From assembly GCA_022819585.1 (NCBI GenBank), contig JAJEGY010000001.1, positions 1 to 64,000 of the forward strand: a DNA stretch of 64,000 nucleotides, read 5' to 3'. This document shows, one piece after another, positions 3,246-59,164 of the stretch. This stretch comes from Dehalococcoidia bacterium (GTDB lineage: Bacteria; Chloroflexota; Dehalococcoidia; Lucifugimonadales; Lucifugimonadaceae). Both the position numbers and the translations under genes were made by a program. The stretch's first letter is position 1. Each line of letters begins with the position of its first letter. The notes beneath the pieces were generated by a model, which saw only the letters and a list, made by a program, of their open reading frames with translations, did not search any database and was not told where the DNA came from.

Positions 3246-3249
<4 letters not shown>

Positions 3250-4508
3250 ATGCCAATCCTCTCAACACCAACCTTCTCCCAAAGCACCTCCGGCAAAACA
3301 ACACTCCCATCCGCCTGCAACCCATTCTCCAACACCGCAATGAAAGTCCTCGGCATCCCCAGCGCCGACCCATTCAAAGTATGCGGGAACCTTGTGCCCC
3401 TGCCGTCCTTCGGCCGGTACCGAGTATTGTTCCGTCGAGACTGAAAATCTGTGCAAGTCGACAACGAGCTGATCTCCAACCACTCCTGAGCACCCGGCGA
3501 CCAAACCTCAATGTCATAAGTCTTCGCCGATTGAAACGCGATATCCCCCGCACAAAGCTGAAGCAACCGAGTAGTAAACTCAAGCCTCTTGCACAACTCC
3601 AACGAAATCTCAATCATTTCCTGCAACGCCTCCTCCGAATCCTCCGGCTCCACAAACCGGAACATCTCCACCTTCTCAAACTGCTTCACCCGCTTCATAC
3701 CCCGAACATCCCGACCAGCCGCCGCATGCTCCTTCCTGAAACAAGGCGTGTGCGCACAATACTTCAACGGCAACTCATCGTCAATGATGTTCCCCTGAAA
3801 AATCGCATTCAACGAAACCTCAGACGTCGGGATCATCCACAACCCAGCTTCATCATCCCGATACAGATCATCCGCAAACTTCGGCAGATTCCCCGATCCA
3901 ACCAACGTATCCTCCCTGACCAGATACGGAGGGTTCGTCTCCTCGTACCCAAACTCATCAACCAACGTATCCAGCAACCAACTCACAATCGCCCGGTGCA
4001 GCCTCGCTCCCTGACCTCTCAACATGTAGAACCGACTACCCGAGATGTTCGCAGCACCCTCCATGTCGATGATGCCCAGCTGCTCCCCAATCTCCCAATG
4101 CGGAACCTCCCAATCTCGAGCCGCGGCTGGTTCATCAGTCCTCACCACAACATTGCAACTCTCATCCAAACCATCCGGCACCTCATCAAGCGGCAAGTTC
4201 GGCAACCCGAGCATCAAATCCCGCAACCTACCCTCTACATCACGCGCCTCCCCTTCAAGCTCAGAGATCCGATCGCCGGTTGCCCGCATCTGCTGGATCT
4301 CTTCATCCGTCGGACGTCGTCTTTCCTCACCTATCCGCCTCGAAACCTCATTCCGAAAGTGTCGAGCCGAATCCGTCTCCTGAATCAACTCGCGGCGACG
4401 CACATCCAACGCCAATATCTCATCGATCGGAGCATCGTCCTCACCGCGCTTTATCAGCCCAGCCCGAACCGCGTCGGTTTCATTAACTATCCTGCGCAGA
4501 TCCAACAT
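3246..4508 (-). CDS. serS: Seryl-tRNA synthetase
   Basis: MLDLRRIVNETDAVRAGLIKRG; class II motifs (TSEVSL, CFRKEHAAAGRDVRGMKRVKQFEKVE, NGSALGMPRT). Confidence 0.97.
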
Positions 4509-4520
4509 CGCTCTAAGCCC

Positions 4521-6089
4521 TCAAGATCTCAACTGCGGAAACAGCGTCACTTCACGTATCGAACTCTCACCAGTAACCAACATCGCCAACCTGTCAATCC
4601 CAATCCCCAACCCACCGGTAGGCGGTAATCCATGCTCCACCGCCAGCAAAAACGACTCGTCCAACCGATCCGCCTCAACATCATCGAACTCCGCACGCAA
4701 CCGCTCCTGCTCCTCAAATCGTTCGCGCTGATCGACCGGGTCATTCAACTCCGTAAACGCATTCGCCAACTCCCTGCCCAACACAAACGCCTCAAACCTC
4801 TCAACAACATCGTCAAATCCCGGCTTCTTCTTAGCCAACGGCGACATCGCCAGAGGATAGTCCACCAAAAACGTCGGAGCCACCAAAGTCGGTTCCACCG
4901 CGGCAGAGATCACCTTGTCCAACAATTGCTGCCAAGTCGAGTTCGCCTCGACATGCATCCCGCGCTCATCCATCGCCGCAGCCAAAGCATCCCGAGTCGG
5001 ACAGGCGCGGAAGTCAATACCAGCCGCATCAATGATCGCCTGCCGCAAATCTATCCGCGGCCAAGGCGGTGCCAAATCGATCACATCACCCTCTTCACCT
5101 TCGGGCACCGGCACCTTGGTAGTCCCATTCACTTCCACCGCAACATACGCCACCAGATCTTCCGTCATCCGCATCACGTCGTTGTAATCCGCGTACGCCT
5201 CATAGCTCTCCATCGTCGTGAACTCAGGATTATGGTCAGCATCGATCCCCTCATTCCTGAAAATCTTCCCAACCTCAAACACCTTGTCCAGCCCGCCCAC
5301 GATCAACTGCTTCAGATACAGCTCAGTCGCGATACGCAGGAACAACCCACGCCCCAACGCATTGTGATACGTCTCGAAAGGCTCCGCAAACCCGCCCGCT
5401 GCAACAGGAACCAATATCGGTGTTTCCACCTCGATAAACCCGCGCTCCTCCATGAACCGACGCACAGCAGACGCAACCTTCGATCGCGACTTCGCGTTGC
5501 GAACCACACGCTCATTCGACAACAGATCAAGATACCGTTGCCTCACTCGCGTCTCCGCATCCTGCAGACCATGCCATTTCTCCGGCAAGGGTCGCATCGA
5601 CTTCGAGATGATCCCAAACGAATGGGCCTCTACCGAGATCTGCCCTCGCCGAGTCCGTATCACCGGACCAGAAATCGACACGAAATCACCAATATCCAAC
5701 ATCCCGAGCAACTCGAATTCGTCCACCAACACATCAGCACGAGCCTGCACCTGAATCTGACCGCTCCCATCCCGCAAGTCAAGGAAAGACATCCTACCCA
5801 TCCCTCGCCTAGCCATCACGCGACCTGCAACACCCACAGCATCAGTCCGGATCTGAGCACCATCCTCATCACCGCCACAAGAAGACTCGCACTCCTCAAA
5901 CAACGCAACCGCATCTGCAATCGAATGGCTCCGCTCAATACGCGCCGGAAAGGGGTCGATGCCCTGCTCCCGCAGCTGCTCAACCTTGCGCAGTCGATCA
6001 AGTTCCAGACGCGAGTAACGCGAAGCCTCCCCAGCTTCAAGTGCAGCGTCCGAATGTCCCGACGACTGGCTCAATTCCAACCTTTCCAT
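4521..6089 (-). CDS. lysS: Lysyl-tRNA synthetase (class II)
   Basis: RVMARRGMGRMSFLDLRDGSGQIQ OB-fold; FRNEGIDADHNPEFTTMESYEAY; GIGIDRLAMLVTGESSIREVTLFPQLR. Confidence 0.97.
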   Translation of the reverse strand: MERLELSQSSGHSDAALEAGEASRYSRLELDRLRKVEQLREQGIDPFPARIERSHSIADAVALFEECESSCGGDEDGAQIRTDAVGVAGRVMARRGMGRMSFLDLRDGSGQIQVQARADVLVDEFELLGMLDIGDFVSISGPVIRTRRGQISVEAHSFGIISKSMRPLPEKWHGLQDAETRVRQRYLDLLSNERVVRNAKSRSKVASAVRRFMEERGFIEVETPILVPVAAGGFAEPFETYHNALGRGLFLRIATELYLKQLIVGGLDKVFEVGKIFRNEGIDADHNPEFTTMESYEAYADYNDVMRMTEDLVAYVAVEVNGTTKVPVPEGEEGDVIDLAPPWPRIDLRQAIIDAAGIDFRACPTRDALAAAMDERGMHVEANSTWQQLLDKVISAAVEPTLVAPTFLVDYPLAMSPLAKKKPGFDDVVERFEAFVLGRELANAFTELNDPVDQRERFEEQERLRAEFDDVEADRLDESFLLAVEHGLPPTGGLGIGIDRLAMLVTGESSIREVTLFPQLRS

Positions 6090-52792: not shown

Positions 52793-53842
52793 ATGAGTGA
52801 AAAAGTCCCACGGCTAACCGAACTCGCCAGCTGCGCTGGTTGAGCCGGAAAGCTGAGCCAAGGCGAACTCGCCCAGGTATTGGGCGGGCTGATCGACGGA
52901 GCCGCGTCAGACCCCGATCTGCTCGTAGGCTTCGAAAACGGTGACGATGCCGCAGTCTACCGTCTAAACGAACACGTCGCACTCGTTCTCACCGTCGACT
53001 TCTTCGCTCCAATCGTCGACGATCCATTCACCTACGGTGCAATCGCCGCCGCAAACGCAATGTCCGACGTATACGCCGTCGGAGGCCGACCCATCACCGC
53101 GCTAAACATCGCCGCCTTCCCTCGCACCCTCCCATCGGACATCCCCGCTGAAATCCTGCGAGGAGGAGCATCCAAAGTCGCAGAAGCGGGCGCACTCATC
53201 GTCGGTGGCCACACCGTAGACGACACCGAACCAAAATACGGCCTATCTGTTGTCGGCGTAATCGAACCAGGCCACCAAGTCCAAAACTCAACCGCCAAAC
53301 CCGGTGACGTCCTAGTCCTCACCAAACCCTTGGGAACAGGCGTAATCACCACCGCCCTCAAAAACGGTAAGAAACTCGGAGAAGCCCTAGACACCGCCAT
53401 TAATTCAATGCTCCGCCTAAACCGACACGCCGCCGAAGCCATGGTTACCGCGAGCGTCAACGCCGCAACCGACATCACGGGCTTCGGCATCATAGGCCAC
53501 CTAATGACCATGATGAAGGTCAGCAACACCACCGCACACATCCGTCGTTCAGCACTTCCCATCCTCCCCGGCGTCATCGAACTCCTCAACGACGGCATCG
53601 CCCCCGGCGGCACCCACCGCAACATCGAATCATGTGCCGACAGCGTCACGTGGCATGAATCTCTCACCGAAATCGACAAACTCCTGATGTGTGACCCTCA
53701 AACCTCCGGCGGCCTGCTGATCTCAATACCTGAGGACAGAGCAGACCTTCTCATCACCGATCTGAATTCCCGAGGCGTTACTGGCACCATCGTCGGTGAA
53801 ATCACCGGGTCCGACGGCAAGGCCGTCCAAGTCAATCCCTAA
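52793..53842 (+). CDS. selD: Selenide, water dikinase, predicted selenoprotein (in-frame UGA 52841-52843)
   Basis: ATG at 52793 is in frame with the listed ORF: MSEKVPRLTELASCAG-U-AGKLSQGELAQVLGGLIDGAASDP...; GDDAAVYRL, VGGHTVDDTEPKYGLSVVG, DITGFGIIGHL, DPQTSGGLLIS. Confidence 0.93.
52868..52888 (+). promoter_or_regulatory. Putative bacterial SECIS hairpin of selD
   Basis: Stem CTCGCCCA/TGGGCGGG (8 bp, one G-U), loop GGUAU; loop starts 33 nt after the UGA. Confidence 0.65.
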
Positions 53843-54603
53843 CGGGACTGATCCCAGAGCCGCTCTCTCTCCTCGGCAGGCAACTCGGCAATCGCCGTCC
53901 CTCCTGCCATCTCCTCCGCCCTCAACACACGCTCCCGCAACTCAGAACTCACCTTCAACAACGCCGTCTCCGCATCAACCCCATGCGCCTGAACCGACCG
54001 CACCGCAGCAGCCAAAAACTCCCCCGCCCTCAACTCAACGTCACTATCAGACTCCCCATCTACACGTCCCACAAATCCATCCGAAACCGACTCCGAGCCG
54101 ATATCCAGCCCCGCACGCATCGCCCGTCGCTGCAAAACCGCCGACTGCGCTAATGCCGGCAGAGACTTAGGAATCGAAGCCACTATCGACCTTACCCCGC
54201 CCGCCTCCTCACGCTTGATCCGCTCCCATCTATCCATAACGTCCTCGCCGGTGTCGAGTTTCCTAGCATCACCAAACACATGCGGATGCCTCCTTATCAG
54301 CTTCTCCGCAACCTTCTTACACACCGAATCCGCATCAAAATCCCCAGCTCGGCGAGCAATATCCGCATGAAATACGACCTGTATCAACAGATCCCCAAGC
54401 TCCTCCTCTAAACCCTCAGCATCCCCCTTCTCTATAGCATCCAACGTCTCATACGCCTCTTCAAGCAAGTTCGGCCTCAACGACTGATGTGTTTGCTCTG
54501 CATCCCAAGGGCAACCACCTGGACCCCTCAATGTTCTCACCGTCTCAACCAAGTGTTGATACGCGCAACACACACCACTAGCATCTCTAACTTCACTTGT
54601 CAT
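53839..54603 (-). CDS. mazG: MazG nucleoside triphosphate pyrophosphohydrolase
   Basis: VETVRTLRGPGGCPWDAEQTHQSLRPNLLEEAYETLDAI; EEELGDLLIQVVFHADIA. Confidence 0.95.
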   Translation of the reverse strand: MTSEVRDASGVCCAYQHLVETVRTLRGPGGCPWDAEQTHQSLRPNLLEEAYETLDAIEKGDAEGLEEELGDLLIQVVFHADIARRAGDFDADSVCKKVAEKLIRRHPHVFGDARKLDTGEDVMDRWERIKREEAGGVRSIVASIPKSLPALAQSAVLQRRAMRAGLDIGSESVSDGFVGRVDGESDSDVELRAGEFLAAAVRSVQAHGVDAETALLKVSSELRERVLRAEEMAGGTAIAELPAEERERLWDQSR

Positions 54604-55377: not shown

Positions 55378-56106
55378 ATGAGTTTGACTCGCAGGTTTAG
55401 AACACCCGATACTTCCGGTTGGGCGGTACTGGTCCTCGGCATCATCTTCGCCGCCTGCCTCCCCATCTTCATCATCGCCATCAACGTCGGATACATCACA
55501 CACTCCGACTGGCTATATACCTACAACTGGTGGCGCAACGGCATCCCAGACCGAACCGGCCTGCCCATCCAAGAACTAGACTCCGCCGCCGACCAGATCA
55601 AAGACTACTTCCAAAACGACGCCGAACGACTCGACGTCAGAGTCAACACATCCCGCGGCACCGCCAGCCTGTTCGAAGAGCGCGAAATCCTCCACATGAT
55701 CGACGTGAAGGACCTGATGCAAATCGTCTCTGCAGTCTCCATCTGGACCGGCATAATCCTAGCCTTAACCGCCGCCACCGGTCTAGCCATCCGCCGCCAC
55801 CAATTCTGGTTATCCCTCTCCAGATGGCTAAGATACACCGCCCTCATCTGGGGCATCGCCATCGCCGCAATCCTAATCATCGCCGTCATCGACTTCACAT
55901 GGATCTTCACCCAGTTCCACCTCCTCAGCTTCGCCAACGACCTCTGGCAGCTAGACCCCTTCCGCCACTATCTGCTCCTCCTATTCCCCGAACGCTTCTT
56001 CCTAGAAGCCACCCTCTTCATCGCCCTCCTGACCATCATCGAATTCATCGGCCTATACGTCGGCTCTCGATTAATGGAAATCCGCTTCTCAAACCCTCAG
56101 TCGTAA
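55378..56106 (+). CDS. DUF1461/TIGR01906-like integral membrane protein
   Basis: Four TM segments with a large N-terminal extracytoplasmic loop; FEEREILHMIDVKDLMQ. Confidence 0.7.
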   Translation: MSLTRRFRTPDTSGWAVLVLGIIFAACLPIFIIAINVGYITHSDWLYTYNWWRNGIPDRTGLPIQELDSAADQIKDYFQNDAERLDVRVNTSRGTASLFEEREILHMIDVKDLMQIVSAVSIWTGIILALTAATGLAIRRHQFWLSLSRWLRYTALIWGIAIAAILIIAVIDFTWIFTQFHLLSFANDLWQLDPFRHYLLLLFPERFFLEATLFIALLTIIEFIGLYVGSRLMEIRFSNPQS

Positions 56107-56633
56107 ACGATATTCGAGACCACCTCGCACTCCGGATCCTTACCCAATATCAACTCGCGCCCGTCAAGAAATCCCAACTCCACCAAAAACACCTGCCCAA
56201 CTACCTTAGCCCCCTGCCCCTCGACCAGCTCCGCCGCCGCAACCGCCGTCCCTCCAGTTGCCAACAAGTCATCAATAATCACCACCCGCTGACCCTCCGA
56301 CAACGCATCCGACCGAACCTCAACCGTCGACGCCTCCGAATACTCCAACGAGTACTCCTTCTGAACAGTCGGAGGCGGCAACTTCCCACGTTTCCTCACT
56401 AACACCAACGGCAACCCCAACCGATCCACCACCGGCGACGCGAAGATAAACCCCCTCGCATCAATCGCCGTAACCGCATCCGGGGCCAACTCCTCGACCC
56501 GTGCCGCAAACCAATCGATCGCCGCACGAAACGCCCGAGGCTCAGCCATCAACGGCGTCAAATCCTTGAACTGAATCCCCGGCTGCGGATAGTCCGGAAC
56601 ATTCCGCACCCATTCCTTCAGGTCCACACTCAT
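56097..56633 (-). CDS. apt: Adenine phosphoribosyltransferase
   Basis: VPDYPQPGIQFKDLTPLMAEP; DARGFIFASPVVDRLGLPLVLVRKRGKLP; VVIIDDLLATGGTAVAAAELV. Confidence 0.97.
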   Translation of the reverse strand: MSVDLKEWVRNVPDYPQPGIQFKDLTPLMAEPRAFRAAIDWFAARVEELAPDAVTAIDARGFIFASPVVDRLGLPLVLVRKRGKLPPPTVQKEYSLEYSEASTVEVRSDALSEGQRVVIIDDLLATGGTAVAAAELVEGQGAKVVGQVFLVELGFLDGRELILGKDPECEVVSNIVYD

Positions 56634-57838
56634 TGCCCGTAAATCTCCGTCTCAGGATAAAAATCGCTCCACGCAAACCAGAACACATTCACCGCATGAA
56701 CAGGACTCAATCGCGTACCCTGATAGTCCCCGCTCCACGCCTGACCATTCAACGGCAACCACTGCGAACCCGACGCCTCATCCACCATCCACCTCTTCGC
56801 CACGCCATCGACCTCATCCTCGACCATCAACGAAAACTCCAAAACTTCCTCATCCACAACCCTTGAATACGCCAACGCCGTAGTCGTCTGAGAATCGTAG
56901 TAAATCACCACCGACTCCCCATTCACCTCAGTATTCACAACCTCCGCCTCCTGCAACGCAACGTGCGGAAACGCTACCGCACCATCATCAAATCCCAACC
57001 CAAGCACCAGCTCCTTCCCATACAACCGCTCATCCCGGTTCGTCTCCCCGATCACGCCCGCATCTCCGCGCATGTAGTACGTCGTGTACGGATCAACGCT
57101 CGACTGGCCCTTCAACAACGCCTTAGTCTCCGGGAACCTCGCCTTCCACTCAGCCCAAGTAGTCAACACCAACGGCACATTCTCCAGCTTCACACCCTTG
57201 AACTCGCCATCGATACCCTCCGAGAGAAAATGACTCCATAGCGAACGCGTCTGCCGGTCGTACATGATCAACGCATTCATCGTCAGCTTCCCCGACACTC
57301 CGAACGTTAGCTCTTGCCCGTTCACAACTCTGGAATACCCGATCCCAGTGAAGCAGAGCGGTCACCAAGTAACCGCGATCGGTTTACCCCCCACAACATC
57401 ATTCACAATCTCATGGCTGCTCAGCAACGGCACCGAATACGCCCGAGCATCACCATCTATCTCGACGCCAAGCACCAACTCGTGGTCCTTGTAAAACATG
57501 CTCGCCTTCTCAAGATCAGGGAAGAAGCCAGGATTGTCTATCGCCGGAATCGCATCAAACGGCAACAACGTCACAACATCCAGATCCCGCTCAGGAGCCA
57601 CCTCCGCAACAGGCGCTTCTGTTGCCGCCGGAGCTTCCGTAGGCTCTGGCGCAGTCGTCGCTGTTGGCACCTCAGGCTCTGACGTCGGAGTATCCAGTGG
57701 GGGAGAGACACTCGTGGCAGTTGGCTCCATCTCCCGTGCTACAGTAGCAACCCCCGCATCATCACTCCCACATGCCACTACGACAACCGCAAGCACACCA
57801 ACGACCAACGCAATTCGAACTTTGCGGAAGGCATTCAT
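56630..57838 (-). CDS. DUF3179-family predicted lipoprotein, candidate selenoprotein (in-frame UGA 57364-57362)
   Basis: N-part MNAFRKVRIALVVGVLAVVVVACGSDD...YSVPLLSSHEIVNDVVGGKPIAVTW, then TGA, then in the same frame PLCFTGIGYSRVVNGQELTFGVSGKLTMNALIMYDRQTRSLWSHFL...; VVAC lipobox. Confidence 0.88.
57321..57352 (-). promoter_or_regulatory. Putative bacterial SECIS hairpin of the DUF3179 gene
   Basis: UUCAC + UGGGAU, loop CGGGU, AUUCCA + bulge GAGUU + GUGAA; loop begins 21 nt after the UGA with G in its second position. Confidence 0.62.
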
Positions 57839-57895: not shown

Positions 57896-59164
57896 TTGCA
57901 GTCCCGCCGCTGTGATTATGATACGCATTACAGACACTCCAAGGATTGCCGCAACACCACATCCAACTCTTTCCAGAGGCACAACATCCACCTCACACGC
58001 ATAAAACTCAGCGGTTTCCGCAACCACGTCGACACCGATATCAACCTCTCACCCGGCCTCGTCGTCTTCACCGGCGCTAACGGACACGGCAAGAGCGGAC
58101 TGCTCGAAGCCGTCCACATGCTTTCCGTAGGTAAATCCCTACGCGCCAGCAACGACCGCGAGATCGTCAACCACGGAATCGCTCGAGACGGCGGACACGT
58201 CCAAGCACTCGGTGTCTTCAACAGCGGACCCGAATCCGTCCGCGCACAATTCGACCTCCAAATCGCTCCGAGCACCACCGAGAACTTCAACCGCCTGAAC
58301 GTCCAATCCAAAGAATGGCGAATCAACGGCGTCAAAGTCCCTCCCGTCGAATTCGTCGGACGCGCCAACGTCGTCATCTTCGAAGCCGCCGACCTACAAC
58401 TCGCTTTCGGCGCCGCAACCGTCAGACGCCGTTACCTCGACATACTCATCGGACAATTCGACACCGAATACGTCCAAACTCTCCTCCGCCTGAACCGAGT
58501 CCGATCCAGCCGTAACGCCCTCCTCCGGGGAACCTTCGAAGTCCAAGACTTCGAGGAGGAGATAGCCTTCTGGGACTCCCGATTCTGCGAAGAAAGCGCA
58601 AAGATCATCCAGACCCGCAGAGAAGTCATGGAACTCCTCCAATCAAGAGCCGTTCCCGTCCATTCCGAACTCAGCGAAGGCGAAACTCTATACCTAACTT
58701 ACCTGCCAAATCTAGGATCCACCGCTCGTTCCGCCGAATCAAACTCCCTCACCGGCACCGACCTCCGCAACCACATCTACACCTCTCTGATGGCATCCAA
58801 GCGCAAAGAACAATCCGCCAACCACATGGTCATCGGCCCACACCTAGACGACTTCCGCATCGACATCGCCAACGCCCCATCCCGTCGATATGCCTCACGT
58901 GGCCAAGCACGCACCGCAGCCCTCTCACTACGACTAGCCGAAGCATCCCTAGTCTCCGAATTCACAAAACGCGACCCAATAATCGCATTCGACGACGTCC
59001 TTTCCGAAATGGACAGCCGACGCAGAGCCACCATTCTAGATCGCGCCTCCCAATACGAACAAACCCTCCTAACTGTCACCGACGACGCCCTAGTCGGACG
59101 CCAAAGACTACGCAACGCCCAAAACTTCCGGGTACTCCACGGAAACGTAACCCCATTCAGGTAA
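57896..59164 (+). CDS. recF: DNA replication and repair protein RecF
   Basis: LTRIKLSGFRNHVDTDINLSPGLVVFTGANGHGKSGLLEAVHMLSVGKSLR; FDDVLSEMDSRRR; true start probably internal, near HLTRIKLSGF. Confidence 0.92.
   Translation: MQSRRCDYDTHYRHSKDCRNTTSNSFQRHNIHLTRIKLSGFRNHVDTDINLSPGLVVFTGANGHGKSGLLEAVHMLSVGKSLRASNDREIVNHGIARDGGHVQALGVFNSGPESVRAQFDLQIAPSTTENFNRLNVQSKEWRINGVKVPPVEFVGRANVVIFEAADLQLAFGAATVRRRYLDILIGQFDTEYVQTLLRLNRVRSSRNALLRGTFEVQDFEEEIAFWDSRFCEESAKIIQTRREVMELLQSRAVPVHSELSEGETLYLTYLPNLGSTARSAESNSLTGTDLRNHIYTSLMASKRKEQSANHMVIGPHLDDFRIDIANAPSRRYASRGQARTAALSLRLAEASLVSEFTKRDPIIAFDDVLSEMDSRRRATILDRASQYEQTLLTVTDDALVGRQRLRNAQNFRVLHGNVTPFR

Follow-up and report, generated by a model that had tools for sequence, protein, structure and literature searches.

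A DUF3179 Family Selenoprotein with a Predicted Lipoprotein Anchor in SAR202 Chloroflexota

A gene in the stretch analysed here (the window: 64,000 nucleotides, contig JAJEGY010000001.1 of a Dehalococcoidia bacterium) belongs to the known DUF3179 family, and its product is a genuine selenoprotein; we hold this reading with high confidence. It is adopted because UGA and Cys codons interchange at the site among homologs, the reading frame is conserved, a SECIS hairpin covaries and the selenocysteine (Sec) machinery of the host is complete. The internal UGA would be decoded by SelB and tRNA-Sec with the hairpin as the guide. The product is predicted to be exported, anchored outside the membrane and active through a Sec/Cys pair.

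One reading frame across an internal TGA

The DUF3179 selenoprotein gene lies on the minus strand at 56630..57838. The TGA at 57364-57362 is the sole in-frame interruption between the ATG at 57838 and the TGA at 56630. The next in-frame stop after it is that terminal TGA (56632-56630). The true start is most likely the ATG, and the upstream ORF start at 58027 is merely mechanical. When the internal TGA is read as U the product has 402 residues with a single internal U at residue 159 (...GGKPIAVTW-U-PLCFTGIGYSRVVNG...). Re-reading of the minus strand reproduced exactly the coordinates, the single TGA, the peptide and the lipobox of the first-pass annotation. The existing annotation is thus corrected from two truncated ORFs to one protein.

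The Sec-encoding TGA (57362..57364, minus strand), identified from the read-through and the homolog alignment, encodes the first position of a UPLC motif at residues 159-162. The family consensus has C at this position, and (U/C)xxC is invariant in the alignment. The Pfam model PF11376 (DUF3179) aligns over its whole length, straight through the TGA (E 1.4e-83, 281.1 bits against a gathering score of 27 bits, model positions 2-292 of 292). No NCBIfam model matched the protein.

The same letters might encode two proteins split at the TGA, with a restart at the downstream GTG (57325), where an ORF is indeed present. Such a split would sever the first lobe of the protein through its conserved motif and leave the downstream piece with no export signal. 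Neither the Cys homologs nor the conserved hairpin would then have a purpose. We consider it very improbable.

Conservation of the UGA, its hairpin and the Sec machinery

Across approximately 200 homologous domains from several phyla, a count that partly overlaps since some loci were fetched twice by different routes, the Sec column holds 149 TGA and 53 Cys codons. A first set (80 fetched stretches plus search loci, realigned) gave 76 U, 42 C and 2 S. In a second set, 80 loci taken from named Chloroflexota, Nitrospinota, Poribacteria, Gemmatimonadota, Verrucomicrobiota and Tectomicrobia genomes, the counts were 73 U and 11 C; the two sets have some loci in common. The proposal that the UGA falls on the first motif Cys to make a UxxC site is borne out by this column, whose pattern exceeds chance, and the relatives have UGA or Cys at the site with no pattern of decay. 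A Cys at +3 is found in every U and C form, and the two Ser forms are the exceptions. These two DUF3179 paralogs, L011 (G000:C20:2837-3799) and L125, read SPIT and SPVN, are without the second Cys and have apparently lost the redox pair.

TGA codons at other columns were found in only 4-5 loci among the approximately 200 domains. Two lie at Trp codons, a single base change away, and one lies at the end of a matched stretch. In L141 the TGA falls in a Gly column and the gene is also frameshifted. These off-site codons (L103, L035, L156 and L141) were rejected as second Sec sites and are likely errors or decay.

In six same-genus comparisons, substitutions at the third codon position are approximately 4-8 times as frequent as at the second, both before and after the UGA, and all six have TGA as the Sec codon. 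DUF3179 is carried by 48 of the 76 genomes of the host's bacterial family, many copies having exactly one TGA. In a FastTree tree of 146 domains, some of whose branches are long, the Sec/Cys/Ser label switches about 10 times, with at least six Sec changes forced by well-supported branches. One genome has a tandem pair (L164 49-891 and 1141-2061, the same locus as L059) with one Cys and one Sec copy. The hairpin is mostly lost in the Cys copy.

A bacterial SECIS hairpin (CUGGGAU-CGGGU-AUUCCAG, 7 bp) is located at 57330..57348 on the minus strand. It begins 13 nt past the UGA, its loop (CGGGU) begins 20 nt past the UGA and its minimum free energy (MFE) is -14.0 kcal/mol. The bacterial model, as given in the available text of PMC13188914, has a loop of 3-9 nt, a stem of 4-16 bp, a G in the first two loop positions, a spacing of 16-37 nt and an MFE of -7.5 kcal/mol or lower. 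The window hairpin falls within all of these limits.

In comparisons across homologs the hairpin covaries where the codon is UGA and is absent from Cys genes. A mean of 5.64 of the seven pairs can form in 126 UGA homologs versus 2.81 in 52 Cys homologs; as a control, sliding the positions by 1-3 nt gives 2.0-3.3 in both sets alike. Several pairs covary, with C-G, U-A, A-U, G-C and G-U exchanged, and the loop CG(U/G)GU is almost fixed in the homolog comparison. Synonymous-codon shuffles that keep the protein gave a mean folding z of -1.39 for UGA genes versus -0.18 for Cys genes. Simple shuffles of the single window sequence gave no significant signal (z -0.2 to -0.7). For SECIS, the comparative test alone is informative and single-sequence shuffles are not decisive.

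The host genome was checked for the Sec machinery and has all of it: a tRNA-Sec with anticodon TCA, SelA (434 bits), SelB (336 bits) and SelD (381 bits). Nearly all DUF3179-bearing genomes of the family also have SelB, the two exceptions being G002 (76% complete) and G037 (56% complete).

These observations bear on the possibility that the TGA is a true stop in a pseudogene, or a miscalled TGC or TGT. The same TGA recurs across many independent assemblies, purifying selection is equal before and after it, the hairpin covaries and the Sec machinery is full. A pseudogene or error is already refuted by the conservation of the UGA in relatives, and we give it almost no weight. The original preference for recoding over a pseudogene agrees with the alike codon-position rates on both sides and the covarying SECIS.

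The selD gene (selenide, water dikinase; 52793..53842, plus strand) lies 3 kb from the DUF3179 gene in the same window, and its own TGA is read through. That TGA (52841..52843, plus strand, context SCAG-U-AGKLS) encodes Sec at codon 17. A SECIS-like hairpin at 52868..52888 (plus strand; 8-bp stem, loop GGUAU, spacing 32 nt) fits the SECIS model. SelD (TIGR00476) resembles the DUF3179 protein as a neighbouring selenoprotein with the same UGA/SECIS logic; it differs as a cytoplasmic enzyme of selenium metabolism whose sequence is unrelated.

General UGA suppression or an alternative code, with UGA as Trp or Cys, is the least probable reading of all. UGA is the ordinary stop for other genes in the window and for DUF3179 itself, and the UCA-anticodon tRNA among the scanned loci is tRNA-Sec. 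Besides DUF3179, the only read-through in the window whose coding is coherent on either side of the TGA is selD, apart from lysS/serS. The latter (window 3246-6089) share one frame with a single TGA and were rejected as a Sec candidate, being two adjacent genes. They make a useful negative control when a TGA is to be read as Sec.

Export, fold and a putative redox role

The N-terminus, MNAFRKVRIALVVGVLAVVVVAC, is signal-peptide-like and has, by eye, a VVAC lipobox at residues 20-23. The signal peptide ending in this lipobox (57770..57838, minus strand) predicts a lipoprotein with Cys 23 as the lipobox Cys, judging from the sequence and the same-genus homologs. The Cys is conserved among same-genus homologs with a readable N-terminus, and another genus has a plain membrane anchor in its place. 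The extracytoplasmic lipoprotein proposed at first thus stands as a prediction, and the protein would be exported and held outside the membrane.

Confidence in the structure model is high from approximately residue 90 onward (pLDDT mostly 93-98). The model consists of two beta lobes, delimited from the model itself and a lobe comparison. Lobe 1 (57101..57565, minus strand) contains HEIVND..GG and the UPLC site. Lobe 2 (56633..57025, minus strand) is a duplicate of lobe 1 without UxxC. Comparison by hhalign shows the two to be homologous (probability 99.9%, E 2e-36, 29% identity), and DUF3179 is an internal duplication with UxxC kept only in lobe 1. Lobe 1 modelled alone has a pLDDT of 95.9. 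In the model Sec159 and Cys162 are located at the turn following a beta strand of this lobe.

The six best PDB neighbours of lobe 1 in Foldseek are all Rieske-type ferredoxins or NirD-like proteins (probability 0.84-0.97, E 0.13 or worse). Rieske-fold ferredoxins and NirD are likewise the best Foldseek neighbours by probability overall (0.84-1.00, target TM 0.49-0.57). When the lobes were compared by profile with 26 Rieske domains from the host's bacterial family, the probabilities were 0.35% and 1.7%, which lends no support. The Rieske ligands CxH and CxxH are absent from the invariant columns and PF00355 does not match. Identity as a Rieske protein was rejected for want of any defining feature, and the resemblance is a fold-level hint only. 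A sequence search of solved structures with the DUF3179 protein returned nothing meaningful.

The family was also considered as a thioredoxin-fold oxidoreductase and this was rejected. The model is mostly beta, and a thioredoxin fold around the CxxC was found in none of the listed structural matches.

Because of the Sec/Cys exchange and the UxxC motif, an extracytoplasmic selenol/thiol redox role is probable for the protein. In such a role Sec159 would be the attacking reactive selenol and Cys162 would resolve, the two forming a redox pair. A less probable alternative is that the same selenoprotein uses the UxxC pair to bind a metal or metalloid (e.g. copper or mercury) outside the membrane with no redox cycling. 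A CxxC/UxxC motif that lies at a beta turn of a fold other than thioredoxin would suit a metal site. Metal-handling proteins are also among the other families listed with this motif in PMC9312934 and PMC13188914, and approximately 2.5 kb separate the host's second DUF3179 copy (contig C7) from a gene whose product has an HMA-like heavy-metal domain. Against this, no metal-handling genes lie beside the window DUF3179 gene, and repeated Sec/Cys exchange, as counted on the well-supported branches above, is usual for redox sites. The redox role remains our preferred reading.

We also entertain, as an unlikely proposal, that DUF3179 derives from the Rieske fold by duplication and loss of the cluster, a UxxC/CxxC redox pair having taken over from the iron-sulfur chemistry. 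The family would then have expanded in aerobic SAR202 as a main selenium outlet outside the cell membrane, with one copy kept beside selD.

Neighbourhood, paralogs and relation to earlier reports

The start of the downstream gene (56097..56633, minus strand) overlaps the DUF3179 stop in ATGA. We take this gene to be apt (adenine phosphoribosyltransferase-like) from its sequence. ORF and block comparisons place a membrane protein at 55378..56106 (plus strand) and a mazG-like gene at 53839..54603 (minus strand) in the same conserved block. Divergent from DUF3179 is a recF-like gene with ORF limits of 57896..59164 (plus strand) and an uncertain true start. The order recF, DUF3179, apt, membrane protein, mazG and selD is shared by the same-genus loci and by a further genus, Candidatus Lucifugimonas marina included; contig ends cut some of the compared blocks. 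The ATGA overlap is found in the window and in five of six same-genus loci, L132 having a short gap. Translation of apt could depend on Sec read-through via this overlap.

In many genomes of the family a Cys-only DUF3179 lipoprotein pair or singleton, often in tandem, lies approximately 6-10 kb from selB (L212, L213 and L214). That DUF3179 lies close to selenium genes may reflect old synteny and not a functional link.

The host genome has a second Sec-DUF3179 (L217, G000:C7 18000-27177) with a UTLC motif and its own hairpin. The gene approximately 2.5 kb upstream of this copy has an HMA-like N-terminal domain and is a possible heavy-metal ATPase. Five or six TGA-bearing copies are listed in several genomes, e.g. 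G036. The window gene, UGA included, is also present in the cultured Candidatus Lucifugimonas marina (locus L140).

The first-pass annotation had proposed a candidate new selenoprotein family. DUF3179 with UxxC/T is already tabulated as a selenoprotein family in PMC9312934 (2022) and PMC13188914 (2026), and some haloarchaeal-plasmid members are named 'DUF3179 domain-containing (seleno)protein' in RefSeq; the claim of a new family is therefore wrong. For this entry both reviews cite the work of Zhang and Gladyshev 2007 on the Olavius algarvensis symbiont. The tabulated proteins belong to the same Pfam family over its full length and have Sec first in UxxC; the window member differs in its SAR202 Chloroflexota host and its lipobox. 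The haloarchaeal RefSeq members are of the same family, at 32-34% identity to the window protein, with archaeal hosts, and their name already flags them as possible selenoproteins.

Several Sec paralogs per SAR202 genome are not mentioned in the available portions of PMC9312934 or PMC13188914. Chloroflexota, SAR202 and Dehalococcoidia have no mention in the main text of PMC13188914, as far as that text is available, and selenium goes unmentioned in the Lucifugimonas cultivation paper. The SAR202 expansion of DUF3179 thus appears undiscussed in the literature searched. The new elements are modest: SAR202 Chloroflexota, among them the cultured Candidatus Lucifugimonas marina, carry several Sec-DUF3179 paralogs per genome, the gene block is conserved, and the predicted beta fold is two-lobed, internally duplicated, weakly Rieske-like and unlike thioredoxin.

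The recoding itself will be no surprise to selenoprotein specialists. What the finding adds is that SAR202, an abundant group of ocean bacteria from which an aerobic member was recently brought into culture, places selenocysteine in several putatively exported proteins of one family. Since Candidatus Lucifugimonas marina is in culture and carries the same UGA gene, the function of DUF3179 could be tested there.
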